Shown: positions 2,947-61,115 of the stretch, one piece after another
How the letters are laid out: each line of letters starts with the position of its first letter
Numbering within the stretch: the first letter of the stretch is position 1
NCBI RefSeq assembly: GCF_003634105.1
Contig: NZ_RBIQ01000009.1
Coordinates: 62,001 to 126,000, forward strand
DNA from: Maribacter vaceletii
Lineage (GTDB): Bacteria; Bacteroidota; Bacteroidia; Flavobacteriales; Flavobacteriaceae
Direction of reading: 5' to 3'
DNA length: 64,000 nt
Position numbers and translations under genes: made by a program
The notes under the pieces: model-generated
The model's database searches: none
What the model was told of the DNA's origin: nothing
Seen by the model: the letters and a program-made list of their open reading frames with translations, nothing else

Positions 2947-3056
2947 TTTTTTGTTTTGTTTCTTATTTAAAACTTATGGTAATGCCTAGTAAAACCCATA
3001 TTGCATATTCGGAATTTTAAATTCTAATACCTACCTCATATGTTTAATTATATAAA

Positions 3057-4526: not shown

Positions 4527-4568
4527 AAAATTAATAATACACTATAAAATTTATTTTCTATTTGTCTC

Positions 4569-6026: not shown

Positions 6027-6128
6027 TGTAATGTTTTTCCATCAACTAAAATCGTATAAACTGCAATCCTGTATGTAGTTATTAATACATACTTTGTATG
6101 TTACAGTTAAAAAATAGAATAAACTTAC

Positions 6129-8030: not shown

Positions 8031-8053
8031 ATATTTTAGATATTATTCCATTA

Positions 8054-9040: not shown

Positions 9041-9049
9041 TTTAATAAA

Positions 9050-10375: not shown

Positions 10376-10419
10376 CTAGAATATTTTATTTAAAAAAAGA
10401 TTGATTGGTTGGTTGTTGC

Positions 10420-11769: not shown

Positions 11770-11794
11770 AATTTTGTTATTTAGTTCTAAACAA

Positions 11795-38993: not shown

Positions 38994-39761
38994 ATGGAGA
39001 AAAAAACAAAAAAACTTTCAATCATCTTAGATAATGCTGCTAGAGATTCGAAACCAACAATACAAGTAAGTACTATTGAAAAAATATCACTGAATGAATC
39101 CTACATTATTCAGGCAGAAAGTATCAATTTAAGATTAGCTAGAGGCGAAAAATTAACAGGCCTAAAAATGGGGTTTACAAGTAAGGCCAAAATGGAACAA
39201 ATGGGTGTTCACGATATGATTTGGGGAAGACTCACAAATACCATGGAAATTCAAGATAAAGGTATTATGAACTTAGATAAATTTATTCATCCGAGAGCAG
39301 AACCTGAAATTGCTTTCTTACTAAAAAAAAATATCAACTCTACTATAACGATTGAGGAAGCGGAATCTTGTATATCTGGATTAGCATCTGCAATCGAAAT
39401 TATTGACTCAAGATATAAAAATTTTAAGTTCTCCCTAGAAGATGTAATTGCTGATAACTGTTCATCATCTGGTTATGTCATTGGAGAGTGGCATGCACCA
39501 AATACAGATATTTCAAATGTAGGTATTACCATTGGAGCAAATGGAAAAATTGAAGCCTCTGGTAACTCAAACGCTATATTAGGAAACCCTCTTCAATCTC
39601 TTGTAGAAGCAGTTCGCTTATCTCTTAAATATGGTCAAGAATTAAAAAAAGGAATGATCATTTTAGCTGGTGCAGCAACTTCTGCAATTGCTATTAATCC
39701 AGGAGATACGATTGAAGCAAATTTTGGAAGTTTAGGTAATCTAAGTTTTAATGCAAAATAA
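38994..39761 (+). CDS. 4-oxalocrotonate decarboxylase-like protein (XylI/DmpH type)
   Basis: The 255-aa cytoplasmic protein belongs to the hydratase/decarboxylase branch of the FAH superfamily. The segment GLKMGFTSKAKMEQMGVHDM followed by WGRLTNTM resembles 4-oxalocrotonate decarboxylases more than hydratases. Candidate metal ligands are Glu103 and Glu105 (EPEIAF) and Glu135 (AIEIIDSR). The known reaction turns 2-oxohex-3-enedioate into 2-hydroxypenta-2,4-dienoate plus CO2. It is the first gene of the only plus-strand operon, with just 3 nt before the sugar-acid dehydratase. No ring-cleavage dioxygenase is nearby, so the substrate here probably does not come from an aromatic ring. Confidence 0.82.
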   Translation: MEKKTKKLSIILDNAARDSKPTIQVSTIEKISLNESYIIQAESINLRLARGEKLTGLKMGFTSKAKMEQMGVHDMIWGRLTNTMEIQDKGIMNLDKFIHPRAEPEIAFLLKKNINSTITIEEAESCISGLASAIEIIDSRYKNFKFSLEDVIADNCSSSGYVIGEWHAPNTDISNVGITIGANGKIEASGNSNAILGNPLQSLVEAVRLSLKYGQELKKGMIILAGAATSAIAINPGDTIEANFGSLGNLSFNAK

Positions 39762-39764
39762 ATA

Positions 39765-41489
39765 ATGTCAAATAATAATAATAATAATAATAAAGAATTA
39801 AGAAGCCAAAAGTGGTTTGCACCCTCTGGAGGAGGCAAAGGAGGATTTGTACACCGTAAAGCATGGCGAAAAAATCAAGGACTCCCTGCTGATACTTATG
39901 GTAAACCTGTTATCGGAATATGTAATACTTGGTCAGAATTGTCTCCTTGTAATACACATCTTCGTGGACTTGCAGAATCTGTAAAACGTGGTATTATTGA
40001 AGCAGGAGGCTATCCATTAGAATTCCCTATAATGAGTACTGGCGAAACTATAATAAAACCTACAGCCATGCTATTTAGAAATCTAATGAGTATGGATGCT
40101 GAAGAAAGTATTGGCTCTAATCCATTAGATGGTGTAGTGCTTTTAACAGGTTGTGATAAAACAACACCCGCAACCATTATGGGCGCTGCAAGTGTAGATA
40201 TTCCAACTATTGTTGTTCCAGGTGGGGCTATGCTTAATGGCCGATTTAGGGGTGAAAATATAGGTAACGGTACCTATGTGTGGAAACTCAAAGAAAAAAT
40301 AAAAACAGGAGAATTTACTCAAAAAGATGTTAAGGACGCTGAAGTTTGTTCTGCCAGAAGTGAAGGACATTGTACCACAATGGGCACAGCTTCTTCAATG
40401 GCATGTATGGCAGAAGCTTTAGGGCTTACTCTTCCAGGGGCTGCTGCAATTCCTGCAGTAGATTCTAGAAAAAAAACCATGGCACAACTCTCTGGTAGAC
40501 AGATTGTAGAAATGGTAAAATCTGACCTTAAAATATCTAAAATATTAACCCGTAAAGCTTTTGAGAATGCAATTGTGGTGAATGCAGCTATTGGGGGTTC
40601 AACTAATTTTATTATTCATTTACAAGCCATTGCTGGTAGAATTGGTGTTGCATTAAACTTGCAAGATTTTGATGACTTAGGAAGTAAAATTCCACTCTTA
40701 GTTAATTTGATGCCATCTGGTAAATATCTTATGGAAGAGTTTTACGATGCCGGCGGACTACCTGTAGTATTAAATTATATGAAGGACTATCTTCATAATG
40801 ATACTATTACAGTAAACGGAAATACATTAGGTGAGAATAATGATGATGCTATTTGCTTTAGAGATGATGTTATTTATAAACCGTCAGATCCGCTTCAAAA
40901 AGAAGCTGGAATAGCAGTTCTTAGAGGTAACTTATGTGAGAATGGTGCCGTAATTAAACCTTCAGCAGCTACAGAATCATTATTAGTTCATACAGGAAAG
41001 GCAGTTGTTTTTGAAAACATGACCGATTTCAGGAATAAAATAGATGATCCTAATTTAGATATAGACGAAACTAGCGTAATGGTATTAAAAAGTGTAGGGC
41101 CAGTAGGTTTTCCTGGTATGCCAGAAGTTGGAAACCTAGACCTTCCCGAAAAAATCTTAAAAAAGGGAATTAAAGATATGGTTAGAATATCTGATGGTAG
41201 AATGAGTGGTACAGCATTTGGAACAGTAATTCTTCATGTTTCACCAGAATCAGCTGTTGGAGGCAACTTAGCTTTAGTTGAAAATGGAGATACTATCATA
41301 CTAGATGTACCTAATCGAACTCTAAATATGGAAATAAGTGACGAAGAGTTACAAAAGCGAAGAGATAAATGGATAGCTCCTGAGTCTAAAGCAAAACGAG
41401 GTTATCCAAATTTATTTATAAATACAGTGCAACAAGCTCATCTAGGAGCAGATTTAGATTTCCTCGTTGGAGGTTCAAAAGATAACTAA
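39765..41489 (+). CDS. IlvD/Edd-family sugar-acid dehydratase (L-arabinonate dehydratase-like)
   Basis: The 574-aa protein dehydrates an aldonic acid to a 2-keto-3-deoxy acid. Cys62, Cys130 and Cys203 keep the spacing I recall for the [2Fe-2S] ligands of L-arabinonate dehydratase, and Lys132 in TGCDKTTPA matches the metal-site lysine. The QKWFAP...GFVHR start also resembles pentonate dehydratases rather than IlvD itself. The N-terminus has seven consecutive Asn encoded by an AAT microsatellite. It is embedded between a decarboxylase-like gene and a GntP permease, so it should act on an imported sugar acid. The exact acid (arabinonate, fuconate, anhydrogalactonate or another) is unknown. Confidence 0.9.
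   Translation: MSNNNNNNNKELRSQKWFAPSGGGKGGFVHRKAWRKNQGLPADTYGKPVIGICNTWSELSPCNTHLRGLAESVKRGIIEAGGYPLEFPIMSTGETIIKPTAMLFRNLMSMDAEESIGSNPLDGVVLLTGCDKTTPATIMGAASVDIPTIVVPGGAMLNGRFRGENIGNGTYVWKLKEKIKTGEFTQKDVKDAEVCSARSEGHCTTMGTASSMACMAEALGLTLPGAAAIPAVDSRKKTMAQLSGRQIVEMVKSDLKISKILTRKAFENAIVVNAAIGGSTNFIIHLQAIAGRIGVALNLQDFDDLGSKIPLLVNLMPSGKYLMEEFYDAGGLPVVLNYMKDYLHNDTITVNGNTLGENNDDAICFRDDVIYKPSDPLQKEAGIAVLRGNLCENGAVIKPSAATESLLVHTGKAVVFENMTDFRNKIDDPNLDIDETSVMVLKSVGPVGFPGMPEVGNLDLPEKILKKGIKDMVRISDGRMSGTAFGTVILHVSPESAVGGNLALVENGDTIILDVPNRTLNMEISDEELQKRRDKWIAPESKAKRGYPNLFINTVQQAHLGADLDFLVGGSKDN
39771..39791 (+). repeat. (AAT)7 microsatellite
   Basis: Seven perfect AAT units encode Asn3-Asn9 of the dehydratase. 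Length changes would not shift frame but would alter the early coding region, where translation initiation is set. Confidence 0.95.
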
Positions 41490-41507
41490 TACTAATAAAT
41501 TCTATTT

Positions 41508-42845
41508 ATGACTATTTTACTTTTAATTTTTAGTATTATCATTATTATCCTTCTTACAGCAAAGCTTAATGTTCATCCATTTTTAGCACTACTTGCAGCT
41601 GCATTTTTCTTTGCCCTATGTTCTGGAATGGCTTTTGAAACTATTGTAGAATCTATAAATGGTGGATTTGGAAAAACGTTAGGAAAAATTGGATTAGTAA
41701 TAATTCTTGGTGTCATTATGGGTACGTTCCTTGAGAAATCTGGAGCAGCCTATAAATTATCAGAACTTATCTTAAAATTAATTGGCAAAAAACGTGTTCA
41801 TGAGGCTATGGGTTTAACAGGTTTTATTGTATCCATTCCCGTGTTCTCTGATAGTGGCTTCATTATTCTAGCTCCATTAAATAAAAGCTTAACTAAAAGA
41901 GCAGGGCTGTCATTAGCAGGTACTGCTGTAGCATTAAAGTTAGGATTATTTATTTCACACATATTAATTCCGCCAACACCAGGGCCTATTGCTGCTGCAG
42001 GAATACTTAAGGCTGATGTTGGCTTAGTAATGCTAGCAGGTTTATTGGTTGGTATACCTACTTTAATTGTCGCTATTATTTATTCCAAATATATTGGCAA
42101 AAAAACATACATAGACCCAAACCCAGATGTTTCTGAAGAAGAAGTACAGGAAAAACTAAAAAATGCACCGAGTACTTTTAAATCATTTTTACCAATTCTT
42201 GTTCCTATTTTACTAATCCTTAGTAAATCGGTTTTAGATTTCAAATTGGGAAGTGAAGCAATGAAAGAAGGATTTCTATATTTTATTAGTTTTATAGGAA
42301 CTCCAGTTATAGCATTATTAATAGGAATGTTGTTAGCCTTTACTTTACCTAAGAAACTTGATGTTAAAATGTTCTCTGCTTCAGGCTGGATTGGCAAATC
42401 TTTAGGAGAGGCTTCGAATATTCTTTTAATAACTGGAGCTGGTGGTATTTTTGGAACTGTATTACAAAACAGTGGTATGGCAAATTCTGTCACCGAATTG
42501 GTATCAGGTTTAAACCTAGGTATCATTTTACCTTTCCTTTTATGCGCTGTAATTAAAACAGCACAAGGGTCCTCAACAGTTGCTTTAATTACTACAGCCT
42601 CAATTATGGCTCCTTTACTAGGGACTTTAGGTTTTGATACAGAACTTCAAAAAGTTTTGGTTGTTTTAGCAATCGGAGCTGGAGCTGCAGTTGTATCGCA
42701 TGCCAACGATAGCGGTTTCTGGGTGGTTACATCCATGTCTAATTTTGATACAAAAACCGGTTATAAATTATATACCAGAGGAACTTTAGTTGTTGGATTA
42801 ACTTCAGGTTTAATCATTTGGACAGCTTCATTATTTATACAATAA
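41508..42845 (+). CDS. GntP-family gluconate/aldonate:H+ symporter
   Basis: The 445-aa protein is very hydrophobic with about twelve to fourteen membrane segments. GntP signatures include LNVHPFLALLAAAFFFALCSG near the start, GFGKTLGKIGLVIILGVIMG, IPVFSDSGFIIL and a late HANDSGFWVV. These permeases import gluconate and related aldonic acids. Located 18 nt after the dehydratase gene, it supplies that enzyme with its substrate and argues that the operon starts from an aldonic acid made outside the cytoplasmic membrane. Confidence 0.92.
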   Translation: MTILLLIFSIIIIILLTAKLNVHPFLALLAAAFFFALCSGMAFETIVESINGGFGKTLGKIGLVIILGVIMGTFLEKSGAAYKLSELILKLIGKKRVHEAMGLTGFIVSIPVFSDSGFIILAPLNKSLTKRAGLSLAGTAVALKLGLFISHILIPPTPGPIAAAGILKADVGLVMLAGLLVGIPTLIVAIIYSKYIGKKTYIDPNPDVSEEEVQEKLKNAPSTFKSFLPILVPILLILSKSVLDFKLGSEAMKEGFLYFISFIGTPVIALLIGMLLAFTLPKKLDVKMFSASGWIGKSLGEASNILLITGAGGIFGTVLQNSGMANSVTELVSGLNLGIILPFLLCAVIKTAQGSSTVALITTASIMAPLLGTLGFDTELQKVLVVLAIGAGAAVVSHANDSGFWVVTSMSNFDTKTGYKLYTRGTLVVGLTSGLIIWTASLFIQ

Positions 42846-42871
42846 GAAAATAAATTAAATCACTAAACAGA

Positions 42872-43213
42872 ATGCCACATTTAATTGTTGAATGCTCCGA
42901 GAATATCTTAAATAAGAAATCCCCCGATAACCTTATTAAAGAGATATACAATACTGTAACAGCTATAGATTCTTTTGAAAATAATGTTATGGTTAGAATA
43001 ATTCCATATAAACACTATACAACTTTAGGAACCAAAGATGATTTCATATACATATTCGCTAATATTTTAGAAGGGCGAACATTAGAAAACAAAAAAATAT
43101 TTTCAAAAAACGTAGTGACCTTACTTAAAAACATGTTTCCTGATGTGCCAAAAATCTCTATAAACATAAGAGAGTTTGAAAAAGCAACATTCGTTAACAA
43201 TTCAATGATATAA
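42872..43213 (+). CDS. 5-carboxymethyl-2-hydroxymuconate isomerase-like tautomerase
   Basis: The 113-aa protein starts M-P-H-L-I-V-E-C-S, so Pro2 becomes the N-terminal catalytic base after Met removal, as in the tautomerase superfamily. Length and the segments IVECSENI and GRTLENK match the CHMI (HpaF-type) family rather than the ~62-aa 4-oxalocrotonate tautomerase. The likely reaction is enol-keto isomerisation of a 2-hydroxymuconate-like or other unsaturated 2-keto acid. It sits between the permease and the hydratase, so it fits the step before decarboxylation and hydration. Confidence 0.85.
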   Translation: MPHLIVECSENILNKKSPDNLIKEIYNTVTAIDSFENNVMVRIIPYKHYTTLGTKDDFIYIFANILEGRTLENKKIFSKNVVTLLKNMFPDVPKISINIREFEKATFVNNSMI

Positions 43214-43227
43214 AGATTACATTAATT

Positions 43228-44016
43228 ATGAGTACAAATAAAATTACAGAAATTGCAGACCGCTTATTCAAAGCATCCCAAACAGGGGATTACTGTGAAC
43301 CAATTAGAAATGTTATAGGTATTGAAGATATCGAAGCTGCTTATGCTACTCAAGATATTAATACCGAAAAACGTAGAAAATCTGGTGCTAGAATTGTTGG
43401 TAGTAAAATTGGATTAACATCTGTGGTAGTACAAAAACAATTAGGAGTTGACCAACCAGATTTTGGAGTTCTTTTTGATGATATGGAAATTGAGAATGGT
43501 TCTGAAATGGATTTCAATTTATTAATGCAACCAAAAGCTGAAGCAGAAATTGCTTTTGTTCTTAAAAAGGATATATCTAATACTCAAATAGGTGCTGCAG
43601 ATATTATTTCCGCAATAGATTATGCTTTAGTGTCTATTGAAATTGTTGGCAGTAGAATAGCTAATTGGGACATTAAAATAACCGATACCATTGCAGATAA
43701 TGCATCTGCAAGTCATTTTGTACTAGGACACAAACCTGTTAAGCTAGAAAACTTAGATCTTATTGGTTGCGAAATGGAGATGTTTGTGAATGGCGAAAAA
43801 GTTTCTGAAGGAAAAGGAGCTGCATGCATGGGTTCTCCTATAAATGCCTCGTTATGGTTAGCTAAGACTATGGCAAAACTAGGGAGGCCACTTAAAGCGG
43901 GTGATGTTATTTTATCAGGTGCTTTAGGGCCTATGGCAAAAGTAAACCCTGGTGATGAGGTTGTAACCAAAATTAGTGGACTAGGAAGTGTTTCAGTAAA
44001 ATTTAGTGATCTATAA
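43228..44016 (+). CDS. 2-keto-4-pentenoate hydratase (MhpD/XylJ-like)
   Basis: The 262-aa protein is a paralog of the one at 38994, but its segments [20 protein letters not shown] and DFGVLFDDM match 2-hydroxypentadienoate hydratases such as MhpD. Candidate metal ligands are Glu105, Glu107 and Glu138 (SIEIVGSR). The known reaction adds water to 2-hydroxypenta-2,4-dienoate giving 4-hydroxy-2-oxopentanoate, which is the substrate of the aldolase encoded two genes further on. It starts 14 nt after the tautomerase gene. Confidence 0.88.
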
Positions 44017-44024
44017 AACTCTGG

Positions 44025-44963
44025 ATGATGGAAAAAGTAAAATGTGCAATTATTGGTTCTGGAAATATCGGAACCGATTTAATGATTAAAATATTAAGAT
44101 ATTCTGATATTCTAGAAATGTCAGTAATGGTTGGGATTGACCCAAAATCAGATGGTTTAGCAAGAGCTAAAAGAATGGGGGCAGCAGCTACCCATGAAGG
44201 TGTAGATGGCTTAATAAAAATGGAGGAGTTTAAAGATATCCATATCATATTTGATGCAACTTCTGCGAAAGCGCATCTATATAACTACGATAAAATTAAA
44301 GCATTTCCGAATAAGCAAATGATAGATTTAACACCTGCTGCTGTAGGTCCTTATTTAATACCTCCAGTAAATTCAGATGCTATAACAAAAGGTGATAATG
44401 TGAATATGGTAACCTGTGGAGGTCAAGCTACTATTCCTATAGTAGCTGCAGTATCTAAAATTGCAAATGTTCATTATGGAGAAATTGTAGCCTCTATTGC
44501 AAGTAAATCTGCTGGCCCAGGAACTAGAGCTAATATTGATGAGTTTACAGAAACAACATCTGAAGCTATAGAAAAAATTGGAGGAGCTGATAAAGGAAAA
44601 GCGATTATTATTTTAAATCCTGCTGAACCACCATTGATGATGCGCGATACTGTATTAACATTAAGTGAACCAGCAGATAAAGAAGAAATCAGACAAAGCA
44701 TTGCTAATATGGTTGCTGAGGTTCAAAAATATGTAAAAGGGTATAGATTACATCAAGAGGTTCAATTTGATGAAATACCTAAAGATAAACCTGTATTTAT
44801 TGAAGGTTTAGGTTATCGTCACGGACTTAAAACCATGGTTCTATTAGAAGTTGAAGGAGCAGGTCATTATTTACCAGAATACGCTGGAAATCTTGACATA
44901 ATGACTTCTGCAGCAAAAGCTACCGCTGAAAAAATAGCTCTATTAAAATACCAAAACGCCTAA
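44025..44963 (+). CDS. mhpF: Acetaldehyde dehydrogenase (acylating), MhpF/DmpF-like
   Basis: The 312-aa protein has an N-terminal NAD-binding motif ([12 protein letters not shown]), the catalytic Cys131 in MVTCGGQAT, and downstream blocks [19 protein letters not shown] and GYRHGLK typical of the family. It turns acetaldehyde plus CoA and NAD into acetyl-CoA and forms a channelling complex with the aldolase encoded 2 nt later. If the aldolase releases another aldehyde (glycolaldehyde or lactaldehyde), the product would be the corresponding acyl-CoA. This cannot be decided from sequence. Confidence 0.93.
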
Positions 44964-44965
44964 TC

Positions 44966-45982
44966 ATGAATAATAAATTATATATACAAGATGTAACGTT
45001 GAGAGATGGTATGCATGCCATTCGTCACCAATATTCAAAAGAACAAATTACCCAATTAGCAAAAATTTTAGATGAAGCCAAAGTTGATGCTATAGAAATT
45101 TCTCATGGAGATGGGCTTGCAGGCGCTAGTTTTAACTATGGCTTTGGTGCTCATACAGATTGGGAATGGTTAGAAGGCATTGCGGATAGTTTAAATCATG
45201 CCAAGTTAACTACTCTTTTAATTCCTGGCATAGGAACTATTGAAGATTTAAAAAAAGCAAGAGAACTTGGAGTAGAAAGTGTTAGAGTTGCAACACATTG
45301 TACGGAAGCAGATGTATCTGCACAACATATAGAAAAAGCAAAATCACTCGGTATGGATGTTGGTGGTTTTTTAATGATGTCTCACATGGCTGAACCATCC
45401 GTTTTAGTAGAACAAGCAAAATTAATGGAGTCTTATGGTGCCGATTGTGTATACGTTACGGATTCTGCTGGTGCCCTTCTTATGGATGGTGTTGCTGAAC
45501 GTGTAAAAACATTTAGAAACGAATTAAAACCAGAAACAGAAGTTGGTATTCATTGTCATCACAATTTAAGTTTAGGAGTTGCTAATACTGTAGTTGCTAT
45601 GCAACATGGCGCAACGAGATTGGATGCTTCTTTGGCCGGAATGGGTGCCGGTGCTGGTAATTGCCCATTAGAAGTTTTAATTGCTGTTTTAAATAAAATG
45701 GAAGCAAATCACAATAGTGATTTATATATGCTAATGGATGCTGCCGATGATATTATTCGCCCTATACAAGAACGTCCTGTTAGAGTAGATAGAGAGACTT
45801 TATCTCTAGGCTACGCAGGAGTATATTCTAGCTTCTTATTGCACTCAGAACGAGCAGCAAAACGCTACGGTCTTGACACAAGACACATATTAGAAGCTTT
45901 AGGAAAAAGAAACATGGTAGGCGGACAAGAAGATATGATTGTTGATGTAGCATTAGACATGCTTAATAAATCTAAAATGTAA
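44966..45982 (+). CDS. mhpE: 4-hydroxy-2-oxovalerate aldolase (MhpE/DmpG-like)
   Basis: The 338-aa protein shows the catalytic cluster Arg13, Asp14 and His17 ([10 protein letters not shown]) and the metal-binding HCH (His196 and His198 in [11 protein letters not shown]), with the same relative spacing as DmpG. The C-terminal dimerisation/communication domain that contacts the aldehyde dehydrogenase is present. It cleaves 4-hydroxy-2-oxopentanoate to pyruvate and acetaldehyde. The pair with the preceding dehydrogenase marks the end of a meta-cleavage-type route, here inside a sugar-acid operon. Confidence 0.93.
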
Positions 45983-45985
45983 ATT

Positions 45986-46444
45986 ATGATAACACTAAAA
46001 ATTAACGGAAAAGAACATTCCGTAGATGTGGATCCTACAATGCCCCTATTATGGGTAATTCGTGATATTATTGGATTTACTGGTACAAAATTTGGCTGCG
46101 GCAAAGGCTTATGCGGTGCATGTATGGTTCTAATGGATGGAAATGCTATTAACTCATGTCAAATGCCAATTTCTGCAATACAAGGAAAAGAAATAGTAAC
46201 CATTGAAGGGAAAACAGAAAACCTTCAAGCACTTCAAAAATCTTGGGCAGAATTTAATGTTCCACAATGTGGTTTTTGTCAATCAGGACAATTAATTACA
46301 GCAACTTCCATGCTAAATAATAATCCAAACCCTAGTGAAGATGAAGTTAATGGAAATATGTCTCGTAATATTTGCCGATGTGGCACCTATACAAGAATTA
46401 AAGAAGCTATTACTCATTGTGTTGAATTAAAAAATAAAGGTTAA
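45986..46444 (+). CDS. [2Fe-2S] small subunit of molybdenum hydroxylase/aldehyde oxidase (IorA-like)
   Basis: The 152-aa protein has a plant-type ferredoxin domain with Cys38, Cys43, Cys46 and Cys58, and a second [2Fe-2S] helical domain with Cys95, Cys98, Cys130 and Cys132 (CGFCQSGQ and CRCGTY). This is the standard small subunit of xanthine-dehydrogenase-like enzymes without a flavin subunit. It lacks a signal peptide and would be carried out with the Tat-bearing large subunit encoded 3 nt downstream. It passes electrons from the molybdenum centre to a cytochrome. Confidence 0.92.
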   Translation: MITLKINGKEHSVDVDPTMPLLWVIRDIIGFTGTKFGCGKGLCGACMVLMDGNAINSCQMPISAIQGKEIVTIEGKTENLQALQKSWAEFNVPQCGFCQSGQLITATSMLNNNPNPSEDEVNGNMSRNICRCGTYTRIKEAITHCVELKNKG

Positions 46445-46446
46445 TT

Positions 46447-48633
46447 ATGGCGCCTATTAAAAATATAAGCAGAAGAGGTTTTATCAAAGGTATTGGCTTA
46501 GCTTCTGGCGGATTGGTTTTAGCTTCAAGCGCATACTCATTCTCTAATTTTGGTTCTAAAGAAGAGGATATACTAGAATTTAATCCAAATTTATTTGTGC
46601 AGTTAAATTCTAATGGCAGCCTAATTTTAGTCGCTTCTCGTTCTGAAATGGGCCAAGGAGTTAGAACCTCATTAACATCTGTCATTGCAGATGAAATGGA
46701 GGCAGATTGGGATAAAGTAATAGTTAAACAAGCTACTGGTGATGCCAAATATGGAAACCAAAATACAGATGGATCAAGAAGCGTAAGAACACTCTTTGAA
46801 ACCATGCGTAAAATGGGAGCCACTGTAAAAGCAGTTCTTATAACAGCAGCAGCAAAATCTTGGAAAGTCCCTGAAAGCGAATGTATTGCAAAAAATCATT
46901 TTATAATCCACTCTAGTGGTAAAAAAATTGGTTTTGGCGATTTAGTAGAAATCGCAAAAGAAATTTCTATACCAGAAAACGTAATATTAAAAGACCCCAA
47001 AGATTTTAAATTCATAGGTAAAAAACTACCGAGTATTGATGTAGAAAATTTATCAAACGGGAGTGCTGTATTTGGTTTAGACAAGCGTGTACCAAATATG
47101 AAGTTTGCTGCTATAAAACGCTGTTCTGTAGCTTTTGGAACCGTTAAATCTGTAGATAAAACGGAAGCATTAAAAATAAATGGCGTTTTAGATGTTGTTG
47201 AAGTACCTATGCTAATTAAGGCATTTGGTCCTTTAGGTGGTGTAGCTGTTATTGCAACAAATACTTGGGCAGCTTTTAAAGGTAGAGATGCTTTAAAAAT
47301 AGAATGGAATTATAGTAAAAACACCTCCTATAATTCAGAAACTTTTATGGATAGCATTACCGCTAACGTACACAAACCAGGTAAGGTTGAAAAAAGTATT
47401 GGAAATATTGATAATGCTTTTAAAAAAGCAAATAAAACCCATGAAGCAACCTATAAACTACCTCATTTAGCGCATGCTCCTATGGAAGTACCAAACGCAG
47501 TAGTTTCTGTAAAAGGAGATATCTGTGAAGTTTGGGCACCTATACAATCTCCGCAGGCCGCCAGAAGGGAAGTTGCAAACTTCTTAGAAACTGACCAATC
47601 TAATGTAACTATAAATGTAACTTTTTTAGGTGGTGGCTTTGGAAGAAAAGCAAAACCTGATTTTATTGTAGAAGCTACCGCTGTTTCTAAAGCAATAAAT
47701 GGACCAGTTCAAGTAGTGTGGTCTCGAGAAGACGATATACAACATAGTTATTATCATACTGTTTCCTCCCAATTTTTAAAAGGAGCTATAGATAAAAATG
47801 GAAAAGTAACAGGTTGGTTGCATCGTTTTGCGTTACCTACTATTGGGTCTACGTTTACTCCTGGAAGAGATTTACCACAACCTTGGGAAGCAAGAAGTGC
47901 TACTGATGTTCCTTATGACATCCCTAATTTACAAATTGAAGCTGGTAAAGCGGACGCGCATGTTAGAATTGGTTGGTTACGTTCTGTAATAAACATACCG
48001 CATGGATTTGCTATAAATGTGTTTGCTGATGAATTAGCTCACGAAGCAGGTAAAGACCCTTTAGAATTTAGATTAAATTTAATTGGAAAAGACCGCATTC
48101 AAGAAACTAAAGATGCTTATAAATATGATACTAGTAAATTAAAACATGTCTTAAAAACGGCGGCAAAAAATGCTGGATATGATAAACAATTACCCGAAGG
48201 CCATGCAATTGGATTAGCTGTACATTATAGTTTTTACTCTCATGTAGCTGCTGCTATAGAGGTTTCTGTTACTAATGGGAAATTAACTATACATAAAATA
48301 TCTGTAGTAATAGATTGCGGAACTGCAATTAATAGAGATACTATAACTGCGCAAATGGAAGGCGCGGCAATATTTGGAATGTCGTTAGCATATTATGGAA
48401 AAATAACTGCTAAAGACGGCGCAATAGAACAGAGTAATTTCCACAACTACCAAGTGTTAAGAATGCCAAATGCTCCAAAAATACAGGTAGAAATTGTTAA
48501 TAGCAATGACAAACCAACTGGTGTTGGAGAACCTGGAGTTCCTGTTATTGCACCAGCAATTATTAACGCTATTTTTAAGGCAACTGGAAAGCGTTATCGA
48601 ACTTTACCCTTATCTGATCATGGACTTGTTTAA
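46447..48633 (+). CDS. Molybdopterin large subunit of aldehyde/isoquinoline oxidoreductase (IorB-like), Tat-exported
   Basis: The 728-aa protein carries a Tat signal (SRRGFIKGIGLASGG, Arg9-Arg10). Molybdenum-cofactor segments include SEMGQGVRTSL and FLGGGFGRKA, and the catalytic Glu695 sits in GVGEPGVP. IorAB-type enzymes are periplasmic, contain no flavin and feed electrons to c-type cytochromes. In this operon, next to a lactonase-like lipoprotein and an aldonate permease, oxidation of an aldose or other aldehyde to the lactone or acid is the likely role. Annotation as isoquinoline oxidase should not be taken literally. Confidence 0.9.
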   Translation: MAPIKNISRRGFIKGIGLASGGLVLASSAYSFSNFGSKEEDILEFNPNLFVQLNSNGSLILVASRSEMGQGVRTSLTSVIADEMEADWDKVIVKQATGDAKYGNQNTDGSRSVRTLFETMRKMGATVKAVLITAAAKSWKVPESECIAKNHFIIHSSGKKIGFGDLVEIAKEISIPENVILKDPKDFKFIGKKLPSIDVENLSNGSAVFGLDKRVPNMKFAAIKRCSVAFGTVKSVDKTEALKINGVLDVVEVPMLIKAFGPLGGVAVIATNTWAAFKGRDALKIEWNYSKNTSYNSETFMDSITANVHKPGKVEKSIGNIDNAFKKANKTHEATYKLPHLAHAPMEVPNAVVSVKGDICEVWAPIQSPQAARREVANFLETDQSNVTINVTFLGGGFGRKAKPDFIVEATAVSKAINGPVQVVWSREDDIQHSYYHTVSSQFLKGAIDKNGKVTGWLHRFALPTIGSTFTPGRDLPQPWEARSATDVPYDIPNLQIEAGKADAHVRIGWLRSVINIPHGFAINVFADELAHEAGKDPLEFRLNLIGKDRIQETKDAYKYDTSKLKHVLKTAAKNAGYDKQLPEGHAIGLAVHYSFYSHVAAAIEVSVTNGKLTIHKISVVIDCGTAINRDTITAQMEGAAIFGMSLAYYGKITAKDGAIEQSNFHNYQVLRMPNAPKIQVEIVNSNDKPTGVGEPGVPVIAPAIINAIFKATGKRYRTLPLSDHGLV

Positions 48634-48643
48634 CTTATACAAT

Positions 48644-49624
48644 ATGCTTTTAAAAAAACTAAAACAATTAAAAAAAACCATACCTATAATAGGTATGGTT
48701 TTTTTTATATCGTGCAATGAACAAAAGAAAAAAGAAAATTATTCTATTACTTCTGAACTAGACACTTTACCTAAATTAATTATTGCAAAGGCACCTGGAC
48801 AAAACCCTGAAGGTATAGAATATGATAAAAAAAGAAAATTATTCTTTTTAAGTTCTATTAATAAAAACCCTGCTATTATTACATTAGATTTTAAAGGTAA
48901 TGTTAAGGTCTTTTCAGATGAAAAAGAAAAAAAACAAGGGGAAAGTTTTGGTTTACAAATTGATTACAAAAACAACTATTTATTGGCTTGTGCAAATTAT
49001 TTGGAATCAAGCAGTCATATAGCTATTTATAATCTTACTAGTGGTTTGCTGAAGCATACTATTAATTTATCGGAGATACTTCCTGAAAAAAAGTTATTTC
49101 AAGCAAACGATTTAATTGTTGATGATAATGATATTATCTATGTTACAGGACGACTTGAAAACACTATCTATAAAATTGATACAAATTTAAAACCGTCTAT
49201 TCTATATCAAAAAGAAGGTCTTGGTCTTCCTAATGGTATTATTTATAACCCAAAAGGTTATTTATTAGTCTCATATTACACAAAAGAAGAAGCAAATCTA
49301 ATTAAGATTCCAATCAATACTCCAACTAAAGCTGAAATTATACAAATTAAAGGTTTTGATTTTAGAGGATTTGATGGTATGATTTTAAATGAAAAAGGAA
49401 ACCTTGTTGGTGTCGCTAAAAATTTTGATAATCCTAAAAGAGGTTTTGTTTTTGAATTGTCTACTGAAGATGAATGGAAAACAGCTAAAGTAGTTCAAAA
49501 AATCTCTATTAATAGAAGTTCAACTATTGCACAAGTAAATTCAGAAATATATTATGTGCTTAATCAAGATTGGAAAAATAAAAATGCTAAAACATGGACC
49601 TTAGAGAAAGTTAGTCTTAAATAG
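48644..49624 (+). CDS. SMP-30/gluconolactonase-like lipoprotein
   Basis: I place the start at ATG 48644 because it gives a proper lipoprotein signal (MLLKKLKQ..., lipobox FFISC, Cys24) and lies 10 nt after the previous gene. The longer open frame begins inside iorB. The mature part is a beta-propeller with SMP-30-like metal-site elements: NPEGIEYD, QANDLIVDD, LPNGIIYNP and FDGMIL. Hydrolysis of a sugar lactone to the aldonic acid in the periplasm would link the IorAB oxidase to the GntP permease. An intrinsic-terminator-like hairpin overlaps the signal-peptide codons. The overall match to known lactonases is moderate. Confidence 0.72.
   Translation: MLLKKLKQLKKTIPIIGMVFFISCNEQKKKENYSITSELDTLPKLIIAKAPGQNPEGIEYDKKRKLFFLSSINKNPAIITLDFKGNVKVFSDEKEKKQGESFGLQIDYKNNYLLACANYLESSSHIAIYNLTSGLLKHTINLSEILPEKKLFQANDLIVDDNDIIYVTGRLENTIYKIDTNLKPSILYQKEGLGLPNGIIYNPKGYLLVSYYTKEEANLIKIPINTPTKAEIIQIKGFDFRGFDGMILNEKGNLVGVAKNFDNPKRGFVFELSTEDEWKTAKVVQKISINRSSTIAQVNSEIYYVLNQDWKNKNAKTWTLEKVSLK
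48670..48706 (+). terminator. Intrinsic-terminator-like hairpin inside the lipoprotein signal sequence
   Basis: A near-perfect hairpin pairs ACCATACCTA (48677-48686) with TAGGTATGGT (48690-48699) over a 3-nt loop, extended by A/T pairs on both sides and followed by eight T residues (48699-48706). It lies 40-70 nt after the iorB stop but within codons 10-21 of the lipoprotein. It can end most iorB transcripts or act as a translation-coupled attenuator. Confidence 0.75.
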
Positions 49625-49645: not shown

Positions 49646-49681
49646 AAAAGAGGTTGAATAATAAATTATTCAACCTCTTTT
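49646..49681. terminator. Bidirectional terminator between convergent operons
   Basis: A 16-bp perfect stem (49646-49661 with 49666-49681) closes on the loop TAAA and has A-rich and T-rich flanks. It lies between the plus-strand lipoprotein stop (49624) and the minus-strand cytochrome stop (49715), so it serves both operons. Confidence 0.9.
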
Positions 49682-49714: not shown

Positions 49715-50125
49715 TTACTTTCTTACTTTGGAAACCTCTTCACTTTCAACAATATCACCTTTATTACCCCAACTATTTCTAATATAGTTAAGTACATCAG
49801 CTACTTGCCTATCTGTTAACATATTATATCCAACCATTGAGCCATAGTAAGACTGCCCATTAACCTTCATTTCTCCAGTTGCACCTTCAATAATAACTTT
49901 AATACTTCTTTCTACATCTTCCATTAGATAGTCAGACTTTGCTAATGGCGGAAAAGCTCCAATTATTCCTTCTCCTGTAGCCATATGACATGACACACAA
50001 TTAGCAGCATATATATCTTTACCACTAGACATACTCTCTTTTAATTTACTAGATTCATTTTGAGCCTTAGCAGTAAAAGAAATAAATACTAAAATTAGTA
50101 AAGACAAAAAATTACAGAAATTCAT
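49715..50125 (-). CDS. Small secreted c-type cytochrome
   Basis: The 136-aa protein has a signal peptide (cleavage after AKAQ, near residue 22), one haem-binding CVSCH (Cys43-His47) and a C-terminal VADVLNYIRNSWGN helix with a candidate Met ligand in GYNMLTDRQ, typical of class I cytochromes. It ends the leftward PUL run, 49 nt after a GH127 gene, and faces the IorAB-lipoprotein genes tail to tail. It is a plausible periplasmic electron acceptor for the flavin-less IorAB enzyme, by proximity only. Confidence 0.9.
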   Translation of the reverse strand: MNFCNFLSLLILVFISFTAKAQNESSKLKESMSSGKDIYAANCVSCHMATGEGIIGAFPPLAKSDYLMEDVERSIKVIIEGATGEMKVNGQSYYGSMVGYNMLTDRQVADVLNYIRNSWGNKGDIVESEEVSKVRK

Positions 50126-50174: not shown

Positions 50175-52232
50175 TTATTTCCATTCAGCAGGTAACCATA
50201 CAGACATATCTGTTTTGCCTCTATTACTCCATGCGTAATAAGGTATTAACTTAACATTTACCTTATTTAATTGACGAGGTTCCAATTTTTTATACAATTG
50301 ATTACTTGTCCAATCTTGTTTTTCAAGAATTCCTGCTTCGCCCTCTAAAACTGTAACTCCTGATAATAAATTTGCATCAAAACGAGGTGTTAAATGTATA
50401 TCCTGAGGAATAACAACATCTAATAAACTAACATCACTAGGCAAGTCTTTAGATTCTAAGCAGTATACTAAAGGCCCGTATTTAACAGCTACTTGATTTC
50501 GTGTTTGTTCTACATTAGGATTAGCTGTAACTAATTGTGCTTTCATTGGTAAATTAAGCTCCACTTTATCTCCTTTTTTCCATTGACGTTTTAAATCAAA
50601 ATAAGTACCTGACTTTAATGTTTCGGATACATTTTCTCCATTTACTTTTAAAGTAGCCCCATCAACCCAAGCAGGAATACGTAACATTAAAGAAAATTCT
50701 TTTTTTCTTTTTACATCCACATTTATTTCAATAGCACCATCCCATGGGTAATTAGATTTTTGAGATAATTTTACATTTGTTCCATCTTCCAAATCTGTAT
50801 CTAGAGTATTACTTCCATAAAGATTAACCCAAACCCCTTTATCCGAAGTATTATACGCGTAACTATGCATTTTTGCTATAGTACGAATAATGTTTGGAGG
50901 ACAGCAAAATACCGGCATAAACTCTCTTCTTTCACCAGAATCTCTTGTTATCTGTGACTGACCTTGAACAAAACGCAAAGGATTTGTATAAAAGAAATTT
51001 TCTCCTTTTAAATCAATTCCAGATAAAGCGCTGTTATAAAAAACAAGCTCCATAATATCTGCAAAACGAGATTCTCCATTTAATAGAAACATACGCCAAT
51101 TAAACATAGCATTACCTATATTAGCACATGTTTCATTATAGGAAACTGTATTAGGAAGATCATAACTTTCTGCATAACCCTCACTTATTTTATCATTATT
51201 CCTAGAAACTGTATGATGATATGAACCTGTAGCCCCTGTAACAAACATTTTTTCATTTGCTATATTACTCCATACATTTTCTAATGAATTTAATAACGCA
51301 ACCTCTCCCGTTTCAGCATAAAGGTCCGTTATTCCACAATACATATAGTTTCCATGACCAGCATGACCAACTGCTTCTGTTTCTTCTCTAAAAGGAGTTC
51401 TTTTTTGACTATGATCTAATCCTCTAGATTCCATAGCCCCACTTTCTTTACTAGTACCTAACTTGTCTACAAAACTTTGGGCTAATTCAAGATATTTTTT
51501 ATCTCCTGTAGTTCTATACATTTCTACCAACCCCATATAATGTGGTGGATTCCAGTCTATTGCAACTAATTCTGGCGTAGGATTAATAAATTTTTCATAA
51601 ATAAGGTCACTTGCTTTAATAGCTATATCTAAAAAATTTCTTTTCCCTGTAATTCTATAATGTACACAAGCTGCAGTCATTAAGTGTCCAAAATTATAAA
51701 ACTCATGGTCAAAATCTATAGTGAAAGGCTTATTAAAAGTTTCAAAAGTTTGTTGATCTTTTCGTGGAAACTTATTTATACCATGACCTATTTGAATTTT
51801 AGTATGTAAATAACCATCTTCACGCTGAGCCTTTGCAACTACAGCTATGATTTCATCCATACGCTTATTTAAACTTTCGTCTTTAGTTACACCATACGTA
51901 TAGGCTAAAGCTTCTACATATTTATAAAAATCGCCATCAAGAAATGAAAATCCTCTAAATTCACCTTCAACTAAACCTGCAGCAACTTTAAAATTATCAA
52001 AAGCGTGAATTGTATTTGGGTCATCCATTAATCTTCCAAGATTTGGAAGCATATTTTCATGACATAATTTTTGTCTTTCTGCCCAAAAACCATCTGTCCA
52101 TTGACAATCAGCAAAATCGATTGTCTTTAATTTCATGTTTGGCGTAGCCTCATTATTAATTAGTCCTTTTTCTTGTGCAAAAGAAGAATTAAACAGAAAT
52201 AAACTACATACTGTAATTACTATATTTTTCAT
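50175..52232 (-). CDS. GH127-type (DUF1680) glycoside hydrolase, secreted
   Basis: The 685-aa protein has a type I signal peptide (SSFAQ, cut near residue 20). The active-site set is complete: Glu351, Glu367 and Cys369 (NETC), and Cys443-Cys444 (VFCCPPN). It is the most diverged of the three tandem copies, with an insertion near residues 150-175 (FPRKDQQTFETFNKPF) and a substitution to SYHHTVSRN where the others have HYGAST or HHGATQ. A different aglycone preference is likely. It lies 18 nt after the next GH127 gene. Candidate activities are beta-L-arabinofuranosidase or 3,6-anhydro-D-galactosidase, the latter known for some Zobellia GH127. Confidence 0.92.
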   Translation of the reverse strand: MKNIVITVCSLFLFNSSFAQEKGLINNEATPNMKLKTIDFADCQWTDGFWAERQKLCHENMLPNLGRLMDDPNTIHAFDNFKVAAGLVEGEFRGFSFLDGDFYKYVEALAYTYGVTKDESLNKRMDEIIAVVAKAQREDGYLHTKIQIGHGINKFPRKDQQTFETFNKPFTIDFDHEFYNFGHLMTAACVHYRITGKRNFLDIAIKASDLIYEKFINPTPELVAIDWNPPHYMGLVEMYRTTGDKKYLELAQSFVDKLGTSKESGAMESRGLDHSQKRTPFREETEAVGHAGHGNYMYCGITDLYAETGEVALLNSLENVWSNIANEKMFVTGATGSYHHTVSRNNDKISEGYAESYDLPNTVSYNETCANIGNAMFNWRMFLLNGESRFADIMELVFYNSALSGIDLKGENFFYTNPLRFVQGQSQITRDSGERREFMPVFCCPPNIIRTIAKMHSYAYNTSDKGVWVNLYGSNTLDTDLEDGTNVKLSQKSNYPWDGAIEINVDVKRKKEFSLMLRIPAWVDGATLKVNGENVSETLKSGTYFDLKRQWKKGDKVELNLPMKAQLVTANPNVEQTRNQVAVKYGPLVYCLESKDLPSDVSLLDVVIPQDIHLTPRFDANLLSGVTVLEGEAGILEKQDWTSNQLYKKLEPRQLNKVNVKLIPYYAWSNRGKTDMSVWLPAEWK

Positions 52233-52250: not shown

Positions 52251-54338
52251 TTATTCCCAAATAATAGGTGCAAAAACTGTCATTTCAGATTCCCCTCTGT
52301 TACTCCAAGCAAAATATGGTACAAATGAGCTCTTAACCGTTTTCCATGAAGGTTCTTCGAGTTTACGATACATGGTGTTTTCATTTTGAGTACGTAGCTT
52401 TATCTCTCCATCAATCATTGTTACGCCCCCTAAAAAGTCTGGACGATGATTTGCTTTAAGTTTCGCGTTTTGAGGAATATAAACATCTAAAATACTTGTT
52501 CCTTCAGGTAAATCTGGAGATTCAATACAATATACTAATGGCCCTCTTTTTATTGCTACTTGATTTCTTGTTTCTTCAATTCTTGGGTCTCCTTCTACAA
52601 AATTAATATCCATAGGTATGTTCATAGAAATAACATCTCCTTTTTTCCAAGTGCGCTCTAATTTTGCAAAAGTTTTAGGAGTAACTTCTATCCCTGCATC
52701 TTCTCCGTTTACTTTAATAGTTGTACCAGATGCCCATTCAGGAATTCTTAAAAGAATTTCAAAAGGTGTGCTTTTACATTCTTCTACGGTAAAGGTTACT
52801 GCACCCTCCCAAGGATATAATGTTTTTTGATTTAATTTTAATTCAGAACCATCAAGTAATGTTGTTTCTAATTTATTACCTCCATAAAGGTTAACTGCTA
52901 TTCCATTTGGAGATTTACTATACGCCCACCCTGCTGATTTAGCAATAGTTCTGGCTAAATTAGGAGGACAACAAAATACAGGGATATAAGGTACTCGATG
53001 TCTTCTTTCTGTAGTTGCGTGTGTATAATCTACTCCACCATCTAACATTCTAAGTGGGTTTGCATAAAAATAATCTTTACCCTCTACGCTAATACCAACT
53101 AATGCACTGTTATACATTACTAACTCCATAATGTCAGCATATTTTGCATCTCCTTTAGCAGAAAGTAAACGGTAATTAAACATTGCATTTGAAATATTTG
53201 CACATGTTTCGTTATATGCAGTTTTATTAGGCATTAAAAAATCTTCCTGAAACGATTCGTGAACCATATCTGTTCTACCACTTGCGCTTTGAGTAGCTCC
53301 ATGATGGGTTTGTCCTTGAGCACCAGTAACATACATCTTTCTATTAACAGAGCTTTCCCAAATTCTTTCAAGAGCATCTAGTAATTCTTTATCGCCAGTT
53401 TCTGCATAAACATCAGCAGCTCCTGCCCATAAATAATTCCCTAATACTGCATGTCCCTTCGCTTCATTTTCTTCTCTTAAAGGAGTTCGCATTTGATTGT
53501 GATCCCCTAAGAAGTTAGGATTTACTGTTGGGTGTTGATCCATTGCTACAGAACCTCTCATATTAACAAAAATCTCAGCTAGTTCTAGATATTTTTTGTC
53601 TTTTGTTGTTCTAAATAACTCAACTAACCCCATAATTTGAGAAGGATTAAAGCCGAAACGAGCCATATCTGGATTCTTAGGTTGAAAAACTGAATAAACG
53701 TAATCCGCGTTCTTAATAGCTATATTTAAAAAATTAGTTTTACCAGTAACACGATAATGTATTGAAGCACTTGTATATAAATGCCCCATGTTGTATAACT
53801 CATGTTGAATTATATTATCCCATCTTTTGGCTCCATTCACCTGAACATGTGTTGATAAATATCCGTCTTCCTCTTGAGCCTTACCTATTATCTCTATAAT
53901 CTCATCAAGATCATCCATTAATTTTTCATCTTTGTTCTCCAAGTACAAATACATGGTAGATTCCATCCATTTATAAAAATCTCCATCATGCCACCATTTC
54001 CCTAAAGCTTCTCCTTCCATCATTCCGGCTGCTTTTTTAAAATTATCATAAGCAAAGCCTACATCTCCTTTAAAAATAGTTCCCATATGTGGAATCATAG
54101 TTTCCTCCGCCATTTTGTGCTTTTCTGCCCAAAATCCTTCTGTCCATTCACAATCCCCTAATTCTATACTTTTAAATGTAAGATGCGGACTATCTGTATG
54201 GTTTAAAATACCCCCTCTTCTATCGTAGTTGGTTGCAACAAAATCTTTCTCTGGTATTTTTTCTTGTTTTTCTGAGCACGAAGTAATCATTGCCACACCT
54301 ACAAAGGCCGTGGCTAAAATTTTTAATTTAACTTTCAT
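52251..54338 (-). CDS. GH127-type (DUF1680) glycoside hydrolase, lipoprotein
   Basis: The 695-aa protein is the only GH127 copy here with a lipobox (MITSC, Cys21), so it is membrane-anchored. Active-site residues are Glu361, Glu377 and Cys379, and Cys456-Cys457. The linker after the signal carries RRGGILNHTD, comparable to the LINNEA/ILNNAE motifs of the secreted paralogs, which suggests a shared N-terminal strand. It is the middle gene of the tandem triplet, 93 nt after the copy upstream and 18 nt before the one downstream. Exo-acting removal of a terminal sugar from galactan oligosaccharides is inferred. Confidence 0.92.
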   Translation of the reverse strand: MKVKLKILATAFVGVAMITSCSEKQEKIPEKDFVATNYDRRGGILNHTDSPHLTFKSIELGDCEWTEGFWAEKHKMAEETMIPHMGTIFKGDVGFAYDNFKKAAGMMEGEALGKWWHDGDFYKWMESTMYLYLENKDEKLMDDLDEIIEIIGKAQEEDGYLSTHVQVNGAKRWDNIIQHELYNMGHLYTSASIHYRVTGKTNFLNIAIKNADYVYSVFQPKNPDMARFGFNPSQIMGLVELFRTTKDKKYLELAEIFVNMRGSVAMDQHPTVNPNFLGDHNQMRTPLREENEAKGHAVLGNYLWAGAADVYAETGDKELLDALERIWESSVNRKMYVTGAQGQTHHGATQSASGRTDMVHESFQEDFLMPNKTAYNETCANISNAMFNYRLLSAKGDAKYADIMELVMYNSALVGISVEGKDYFYANPLRMLDGGVDYTHATTERRHRVPYIPVFCCPPNLARTIAKSAGWAYSKSPNGIAVNLYGGNKLETTLLDGSELKLNQKTLYPWEGAVTFTVEECKSTPFEILLRIPEWASGTTIKVNGEDAGIEVTPKTFAKLERTWKKGDVISMNIPMDINFVEGDPRIEETRNQVAIKRGPLVYCIESPDLPEGTSILDVYIPQNAKLKANHRPDFLGGVTMIDGEIKLRTQNENTMYRKLEEPSWKTVKSSFVPYFAWSNRGESEMTVFAPIIWE

Positions 54339-61104: not shown

Positions 61105-61115
61105 ATTCTAAAAAA

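Follow-up and report, generated by a model that had tools for sequence, protein, structure and literature searches.

A ten-gene operon of Maribacter vaceletii sets a remodeled IlvD dehydratase among the enzymes of a meta-cleavage lower pathway: a possible entry of sugar acids at 4-oxalocrotonate

The series of a tautomerase, a decarboxylase, a hydratase, an aldolase and a dehydrogenase is the oxalocrotonate branch of catechol degradation, represented by the Dmp, Xyl and Nah systems and, in a variant for 2-aminophenol, by Amn. An operon in Maribacter vaceletii, a marine bacterium that degrades seaweed, shares with these systems all five lower enzymes, that is, the complete set leading from 2-hydroxymuconate to acetyl-CoA, as an initial annotation made from the sequence alone had claimed. 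In contrast to them, it contains no gene for a ring dioxygenase, a semialdehyde dehydrogenase or a deaminase and carries instead, within its borders, genes for an IlvD dehydratase and a GntP permease. The operon occupies positions 38994-49624 of a 64,000-nt stretch, hereafter the window, which corresponds to positions 62001-126000 of its contig in the 3.89 Mb genome, and its genes are termed g1 to g10 in their order along the plus strand. We tentatively read it as a composite catabolic route, a reading that we hold to be somewhat short of probable, in which the remodeled IlvD enzyme makes 2-hydroxymuconate or a tautomer of it from an imported C6 diacid.

The ten plus-strand genes of the initial annotation were all borne out in their order and coordinates. 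Eight intergenic gaps separate g1 through g9, measuring 3, 18, 26, 14, 8, 2, 3 and 2 nt, and ten long open reading frames of coherent families at such tight spacing indicate that the arrangement is not due to chance. The genes flanking the operon lie on the minus strand, and a bidirectional intrinsic terminator (49646-49681, a 16-pair inverted repeat with T tracts on both strands) closes it between g10 and a convergent cytochrome c gene. A promoter scan returned 59 sites against 52.2 expected and was uninformative. Families were assigned with Pfam and NCBIfam profiles, each at its own cut-off.

The first gene of the lower pathway, g1 (38994-39761), encodes a predicted 4-oxalocrotonate (2-oxohex-3-enedioate) decarboxylase of the FAA-hydrolase superfamily. 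It scores 192.8 bits with TIGR03218, under the cut-off of 350.6, and its best solved match is the 4-oxalocrotonate decarboxylase 8ih6_F (247.6 bits), with NahK at 139.8 and the top hydratase at 114 bits; in a tree whose bootstrap had not settled it groups with Bacteroidota relatives (21-row group, support 90/95). Outside the operon, three genes of the genome, and no more, match the FAA-hydrolase family. The product of g4 (42872-43213) is a Pro1 tautomerase of the CHMI type, since it starts with Met-Pro and its structure model (predicted local distance difference test, pLDDT, 76) finds the CHMI folds 3e6q and 1otg as best matches; it passes the Pfam cut-off of PF02962 with 38 bits and stays below that of the NCBIfam CHMI model (26 bits, cut-off 215). 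A 2-hydroxypenta-2,4-dienoate (2-oxopent-4-enoate) hydratase of the MhpD type is encoded by g5 (43228-44016; PRK11342, 319 bits, short of the cut-off of 350), the acylating acetaldehyde dehydrogenase MhpF/DmpF by g6 (44025-44963; TIGR03215, 459 bits, over cut-off; 1nvm_B, 426 bits) and the 4-hydroxy-2-oxovalerate aldolase MhpE/DmpG by g7 (44966-45982; TIGR03217, 550 bits, over cut-off; 1nvm_A, 490 bits).

To these assignments, in which g1 and g5 remain below their equivalog cut-offs, residue conservation can be added. A column was called conserved when at least 95% of the relatives agree (79 relatives for g1, 16 for g5, 20 for g7, 15 for g6 and 20 for g2). All such columns are kept in g1 (64/64) and g5 (58/58), and nearly all in g7 (212/217) and g6 (150/155). 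When each relative was left out in turn and compared with the others, the maximum of changed columns was 3 of 65 for g1, 8 of 66 for g5, 5 of 191 for g7 and 7 of 162 for g6. The four proteins fall within the range of their own relatives and therefore look tuned to their usual substrates, which, judging from the sequences, they appear still to handle. Decarboxylase, hydratase, aldolase and acylating dehydrogenase of the oxalocrotonate branch are thus all present with their conserved residues.

The dehydratase g2 (39765-41489) belongs to the sugar-acid branch of the IlvD/Edd family. It reaches 868 bits with PRK06131, over cut-off, and 797 bits with the L-arabinonate dehydratase model, whose cut-off is 882; solved matches are 8ej0 (763 bits) and the L-arabinonate dehydratase 5j83 (720 bits). 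The domains, the cysteine motif and the serine motif SDGRMSGT are retained, and the C-terminal active-site histidine is missing. In its own tree, g2 has as sister group (98/95) 11 IlvD sequences from Bacteroidota. Nine of these share the same 20 kb with an FAA hydrolase and/or a particular aldehyde dehydrogenase (ALDH), mostly adjacent. From this gene content, the sister clusters presumably run a Weimberg pathway; the best NCBIfam model of their ALDH is dioxovalerate dehydrogenase, at 119 of 750 bits far under cut-off. The permease g3 (41508-42845) passes the cut-off of the GntP family (TIGR00791, 308 bits), shares 54-61% identity with the GntP proteins of five among the 20 fetched IlvD loci and probably imports an aldonate. 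The IlvD-GntP pair is what the operon shares with these Weimberg-like clusters of Bacteroidota, which stand for the Weimberg and Dahms non-phosphorylative pathways of pentose breakdown, whereas their FAA hydrolase and ALDH are replaced here by the 4-oxalocrotonate set. The KDP dehydratase and KGSA dehydrogenase of a Weimberg pathway were not recognized in the operon: g1 and g5 are of the decarboxylase/hydratase type, and no ALDH of PF00171 is encoded in it. Two origins of the parts can be discerned, the sugar-acid clusters for IlvD and GntP and, for the decarboxylase, a kinship in which 33 of 80 relatives neighbor kynurenine-type genes.

It is at its ends that g2 departs most visibly from its relatives. 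Its C-terminus reads GGSKDN, the last residue being N, whereas a histidine ends all 30 distinct relatives after a tail about eight residues longer, and neither of the two other reading frames over the same stretch supplies the missing tail. Three residues are inserted near the N-terminal recognition helix. Those parts of PMC11316719 and PMC5770437 that deal with L-arabinonate and D-xylonate dehydratases place the C-terminal tail and the recognition helix in the active site of the partner subunit, and crystal and mutant work ties both elements to substrate choice; the C-terminal histidine is described as fully conserved in the sugar-acid dehydratase subfamily (PMC11316719, in part). Beyond the ends, 19 of the 248 conserved columns are altered in g2, including 11 in which all 20 relatives agree; in the leave-one-out control no relative exceeds 6 changes in 202 columns, and the median is 2 of 198. 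The figure of 19/248 rests on the laxer threshold of at least 95%, and the stricter comparison is that of 11 invariant columns with no more than six in any relative, so that the excess is clear but smaller than 19/248 suggests. Because the frame is intact and the gene has its place in the operon, we favor a new substrate for g2 over decay.

The initial annotation had a sugar acid, not an aromatic compound, feed the lower pathway. The resemblance of IlvD and GntP to proteins of sugar-acid clusters is in line with this view, which is reasonable and has gained support from the ancestry and remodeling of IlvD; the feeding sugar itself did not emerge. When formulae are followed backward from 4-hydroxy-2-oxovalerate, the IlvD substrate would be C6H8O6, or C6H10O7 if one more water is lost. 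The proposed loss of two waters from a monodeoxyhexarate (C6H10O7) to give 4-oxalocrotonate accordingly fits by mass. Candidate substrates would thus be C6 diacids with a 2,3-diol, such as 2,3-dihydroxyhex-4-enedioate (C6H8O6) or a monodeoxyhexarate; the former has the appeal that its dehydration by IlvD would give, as the enol, 2-hydroxymuconate itself, a substrate of the operon's tautomerase.

The sequences establish the families and conserved residues of g1 and g5-g7, the layout of the operon and the ancestry and altered ends of IlvD; from these we infer the following order of steps. In the periplasm, the products of g8 and g9 (IorAB) would oxidize an aldehyde or aldose with the help of a cytochrome c, the g10 lipoprotein may open a lactone, and GntP would take up the resulting acid. 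Inside the cell, g2 would dehydrate the 2,3-diol, perhaps following an additional dehydration, to yield 2-hydroxymuconate or the 2-oxo tautomer of it, and the CHMI-type tautomerase g4 would lead to 2-oxohex-3-enedioate (4-oxalocrotonate). Then g1 would remove CO2 from 4-oxalocrotonate, g5 would hydrate the product to 4-hydroxy-2-oxovalerate, and g7 together with g6 would cleave the latter to pyruvate and acetyl-CoA.

The periplasmic half of this scheme relies on the last three genes. The IorA-type [2Fe-2S] subunit of a molybdenum aldehyde dehydrogenase is encoded by g8 (45986-46444; PF01799, PF00111) and the IorB-type molybdopterin subunit by g9 (46447-48633; MoCoBD domains), whose N-terminal NISRRGFIKG resembles, by eye, a twin-arginine signal and whose best solved match is 8gy3_C, "large subunit of aldehyde dehydrogenase" (311 bits). 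With such a signal and such a relative, IorAB is probably periplasmic and would act upstream of GntP or scavenge leaked aldehyde. The convergent gene beyond the terminator (49715-50125, minus strand; PF00034) encodes a small cytochrome c, a candidate electron acceptor of IorAB, and in another locus (L234) some 2 kb separate an IorAB pair from a cytochrome c that is 45% identical to it. IorB recurs at 60-68% identity in 3 of 394 other genomes of the phylum, with no gene of the operon besides IorA in the 20 kb fetched around each, and the neighborhoods of four relatives of IorB in proteobacteria were uninformative. For g10 (48644-49624) the most likely start is the ATG at 48644, ten nt past IorB, rather than the TTG at 48494. 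A lipobox-like FISC, read by eye, and matches to designed propeller (Pizza) proteins agree with the lipoprotein and propeller part of the earlier label "SMP-30-like lipoprotein"; the SMP-30 part is weak, the protein reaching 21.9 bits with Pfam SGL, under the cut-off of 26.3 for a gluconolactonase of that family. Its single-sequence model (pLDDT 41) is too poor for use, and g10 is best described as a beta-propeller lipoprotein that is possibly an SMP-30-like lactonase.

A search of Bacteroidota for IlvD beside MhpE, which the initial annotation had suggested, gave no second case among our samples. A pattern-based genome scan found 148 relatives of g1, of which 80 were kept (48-58% identical, nearly all from Bacteroidota); g2, g3, g4, g8 and g9 were not the best match of any open reading frame near these 80, many of the loci being cut by contig ends. 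MhpE was present in none of the 20 fetched IlvD neighborhoods; among 397 genomes of the family it scored over cut-off in seven, that of M. vaceletii included. Among eight genomes of the genus, this IlvD occurs in that of the window alone, and the sole IlvD of the other seven, at 35-36% identity to g2, is taken as biosynthetic. The full composite was thus found in one genome, in samples that may miss close relatives. A sugar acid feeding 4-oxalocrotonate is not described among the titles and abstract openings listed from the open-licence literature. The modules are known, and their combination looks new in the data searched.

A comparable lower pathway was observed on the Escherichia coli plasmid RCS46_p (NZ_LT985249.1, 212375-216152; L247:6956-10733), where genes for LysR, a tautomerase, two FAA-family proteins, MhpF and MhpE follow each other between insertion sequences; a 98.9% identical copy of this cassette lies on the Klebsiella plasmid LR890720.1. 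As in our operon, the pathway is complete and no ring-cleavage dioxygenase is annotated in the stretches seen. In contrast to our operon, the plasmid cassette has no dehydratase, permease or IorAB, and beyond insertion sequences, at a distance of about 7 kb, it is followed by genes for a PDR/VanB-family oxidoreductase and a glutathione S-transferase. This partial precedent suggests that the lower pathway can be recruited as a block, and it also speaks for an independence of the two halves of the operon.

The surroundings have the makings of a carrageenan utilization locus, with GH127 glycosidases, sulfatases and a DauB-type cycloisomerase, the specificity of the glycosidases being predicted. 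The window contains eight sulfatases, four GH127 enzymes (PF07944; 34921-36906 on the minus strand, 50175-52232, 52251-54338 and 54432-56465), a GLAA-B barrel protein, presumably of family GH110, a SASA esterase, two hybrid two-component regulators and a FucP-type symporter (499.6 bits, cut-off 280.4). To the right of the window (L008) are found a DauB-like cycloisomerase, an ALDH, an HpcH/HpaI aldolase, RhaT-type and GntP permeases and a TonB-dependent receptor. The cycloisomerase scores 475 bits with 5olc, named "galactonate dehydratase" in the PDB, which we take to be the Zobellia cycloisomerase. In the genome, which yielded no DGOK-family kinase, its gene and that of the ALDH stand beside the HpcH/HpaI aldolase gene (L008:9778-14225), a possible kinase-free anhydrogalactose route. 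These anhydrogalactose-type genes just beyond the window suggest that the main sugars of the polymer have their own route and that the operon is probably not the main galactan route; this setting had escaped the initial annotation. GH127, sulfatases, MFS permeases, a DauB-like cycloisomerase and an ALDH are shared with the carrageenan system of Zobellia, which in the part of its gene table compared has nothing like this operon (PMC5698469); further differences are the kinase, not found here, and the HpcH/HpaI aldolase gene adjoining the DauB-like gene. Four GH127 paralogs in one window compare with one to three per locus in the portion of PMC5698469 used. At 59944-62402, a galactonate dehydratase-like enzyme (268.5 bits, cut-off 311) is encoded beside a galactonate-type transporter (376.9 bits, cut-off 395), hinting at oxidative use of galactose. 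A further set at 668-15709, within a flavobacterial sulfatase locus, comprises a GMC oxidoreductase, gluconate dehydrogenase subunit 3, a MauG-like cytochrome, DUF1552 and DUF1592/PSCyt proteins and may possibly serve periplasmic sugar oxidation.

Several feeds were rejected on their formulae or genes. Those of 3,6-anhydrogalactose, anhydrogalactonate, galactose and galactonate miss 4-oxalocrotonate; the presence nearby of genes for the DauB-like enzyme, ALDH, HpcH/HpaI aldolase and galactonate dehydratase-like enzyme is a second reason against them. Galactarate, pentonates and fuconate miss both 4-oxalocrotonate and 4-hydroxy-2-oxovalerate by the steps considered. Hexuronates fit by mass only and would need an internal redox step, for which no gene was seen. 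The inositol ring-cleavage product 5-deoxyglucuronate is chemically attractive, yet no IolD passes its cut-off, the one match (251 of 715 bits) lying beside the other ilvD gene. Furan and butenolide precursors were weighed on paper only.

It is conceivable that the operon serves two functions on one transcript, IlvD and GntP processing an aldonate and g1 and g4-g7 degrading 2-hydroxymuconate or 4-oxalocrotonate that is external or derived from an aromatic compound. The occurrence of the lower cassette as a block on two plasmids fits this explanation, and g1 and g5-g7, being conserved, call for no new substrate, but the plasmid precedent is imperfect given the oxidoreductase and transferase genes some 7 kb away. 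Moreover, IlvD and GntP stand between g1 and g4-g7 and not at an end of the operon, IlvD is altered at its specificity elements, and the 2-keto-3-deoxy acid made by a free aldonate dehydratase would lack an obvious dedicated enzyme in the operon; we consider such a mere co-transcription unlikely, though a serious contender. As to an aromatic source, the initial claim that no ring dioxygenase lies in or beside the operon holds, and catechol 2,3-dioxygenase (TIGR03211) has zero matches genome-wide in a search that left LigB-type dioxygenases aside; with the same limit, no whole meta-cleavage pathway of extradiol dioxygenase and hydroxymuconic semialdehyde dehydrogenase was found. The initial annotation had taken such a gene pair elsewhere in the genome, co-regulated with the operon and induced by aromatics rather than sugars, as speaking against its view; the genes, sought in part, did not turn up. 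A related explanation would make the operon the lower half of tryptophan breakdown through kynurenine and 2-aminomuconate, with IlvD, GntP and IorAB as passengers. In its favor, 33 of the 80 g1 relatives have one or more, and 27 two or more, neighbors of the tryptophan-dioxygenase, amidohydrolase, kynureninase or KMO type in the fetched flanks (at least 40% identity; the KMO label read from sequence, the other three from Pfam), while a looser count admitting distant ALDHs and aminotransferases gives 38 and 30 of 80. MhpE passes its cut-off in six further genomes of the family, and in three of them kynurenine-cluster genes were seen. A 3-hydroxyanthranilate dioxygenase gene over cut-off is present in the genome itself (C1, L232:7624-10169). 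It adjoins, however, an L-piperidine-6-carboxylate dehydrogenase gene, and no kynurenine gene was seen among the annotated open reading frames around it. PF00171 matches 11 times in the genome, once in each of nine full-length ALDHs and twice in a shorter protein. None of the nine exceeds 33% identity to the reference ALDH of a kynurenine cluster, judged by its position to be aminomuconate-semialdehyde dehydrogenase, and the shorter protein returned no result. Six control loci put through the same comparison gave 66-90% (three Bacteroidota), 44-45% (two others) and no result (one). Two of the genome's ALDHs were compared with NCBIfam, and TIGR03216 appears for one of them, with 246 of the 693 bits of its cut-off. 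With no close ALDH and no deaminase in the operon, a 2-aminomuconate route was not recovered, in a survey whose genome-wide part did not include Rid deaminase, tryptophan dioxygenase, KMO and kynureninase, and the operon's tautomerase is absent from the aminomuconate route as laid out in the relevant part of PMC6742747. We regard this origin as very improbable.

Two further explanations would bypass the upper steps of the lower pathway. A 5-deoxy sugar acid could lead straight to 4-hydroxy-2-oxovalerate, either from 5-deoxypentonate by loss of water or from 3-C-carboxy-5-deoxypentonate (oxidized aceric acid) by loss of water through IlvD and of CO2 through the decarboxylase of FAA-hydrolase fold. 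The formulae fit, the C5 entry being C5H10O5 as initially proposed, and the nearest characterized IlvD enzymes use pentonates; the price is that g1, g4 and g5 become unnecessary or have to act on something other than their usual substrate, despite the full conservation of g1 and g5. The four GH127 enzymes of the window score 826, 727, 708 and 678 bits with the NCBIfam model of aceric acid hydrolase, an activity reported for BT1003 (PMC5698469, in part), but none reaches the cut-off of 950, so that an assignment to aceric acid, a sugar of rhamnogalacturonan II, was not obtained for any of them. According to the same part of PMC5698469, the sugar released by three GH127 enzymes of Zobellia is 3,6-anhydro-D-galactose, and aceric acid is not known from red algae. 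This entry is, in our judgment, distinctly unlikely. A Dahms-type route would have IlvD make 2-keto-3-deoxypentonate and MhpE split it into pyruvate and glycolaldehyde, in line with the likeness of the IlvD-GntP pair to Weimberg-like clusters. Such a retro-aldol cleavage, also put forward initially, gives g1, g4 and g5 nothing to do, nearly every position conserved in the acetaldehyde-forming pair is retained by g6 and g7, and the C-terminal histidine reported for pentonate dehydratases (PMC11316719, in part) is gone from g2; we find it hardly credible.

Several points also weigh against a composite route from a C6 diacid to 2-hydroxymuconate. We know of no sugar of red-algal polysaccharides that gives the required acid. 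Since the composite occurs in one genome only, nothing comparative ties IlvD to the lower pathway. The loss of the g2 tail could be decay, and part of the change in g2 may come from its long branch (0.5). In the portions of PMC11316719 and PMC5770437 concerned with L-arabinonate dehydratase, His579 variants had lowered activity with some kept, one of them gaining about 20% on D-fuconate; loss of the histidine alone need therefore not mean a new substrate. Relatives of IorAB occur without the other genes of the operon, and IorAB could serve only to scavenge aldehydes, while the lactonase label of g10 is weak. Finally, the lone 3-hydroxyanthranilate dioxygenase gene leaves an aromatic source weakened and yet still possible.

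In its fullest form, our proposal is of an undescribed route in which a sugar acid from a red-algal polysaccharide is converted directly to 2-hydroxymuconate by a neofunctionalized IlvD and burnt by a meta-cleavage lower pathway without any aromatic ring, which we put forward as possible but rather doubtful. The operon offers a directly testable case, in which the change of the enzyme lies at two known specificity elements. If the proposal is true, two textbook catabolic worlds, that of sugars and that of aromatics, would be joined at 4-oxalocrotonate, IlvD dehydratases would gain a new destination, and the operon would point to an unrecognized C6 acid in red-algal polysaccharide or its breakdown.

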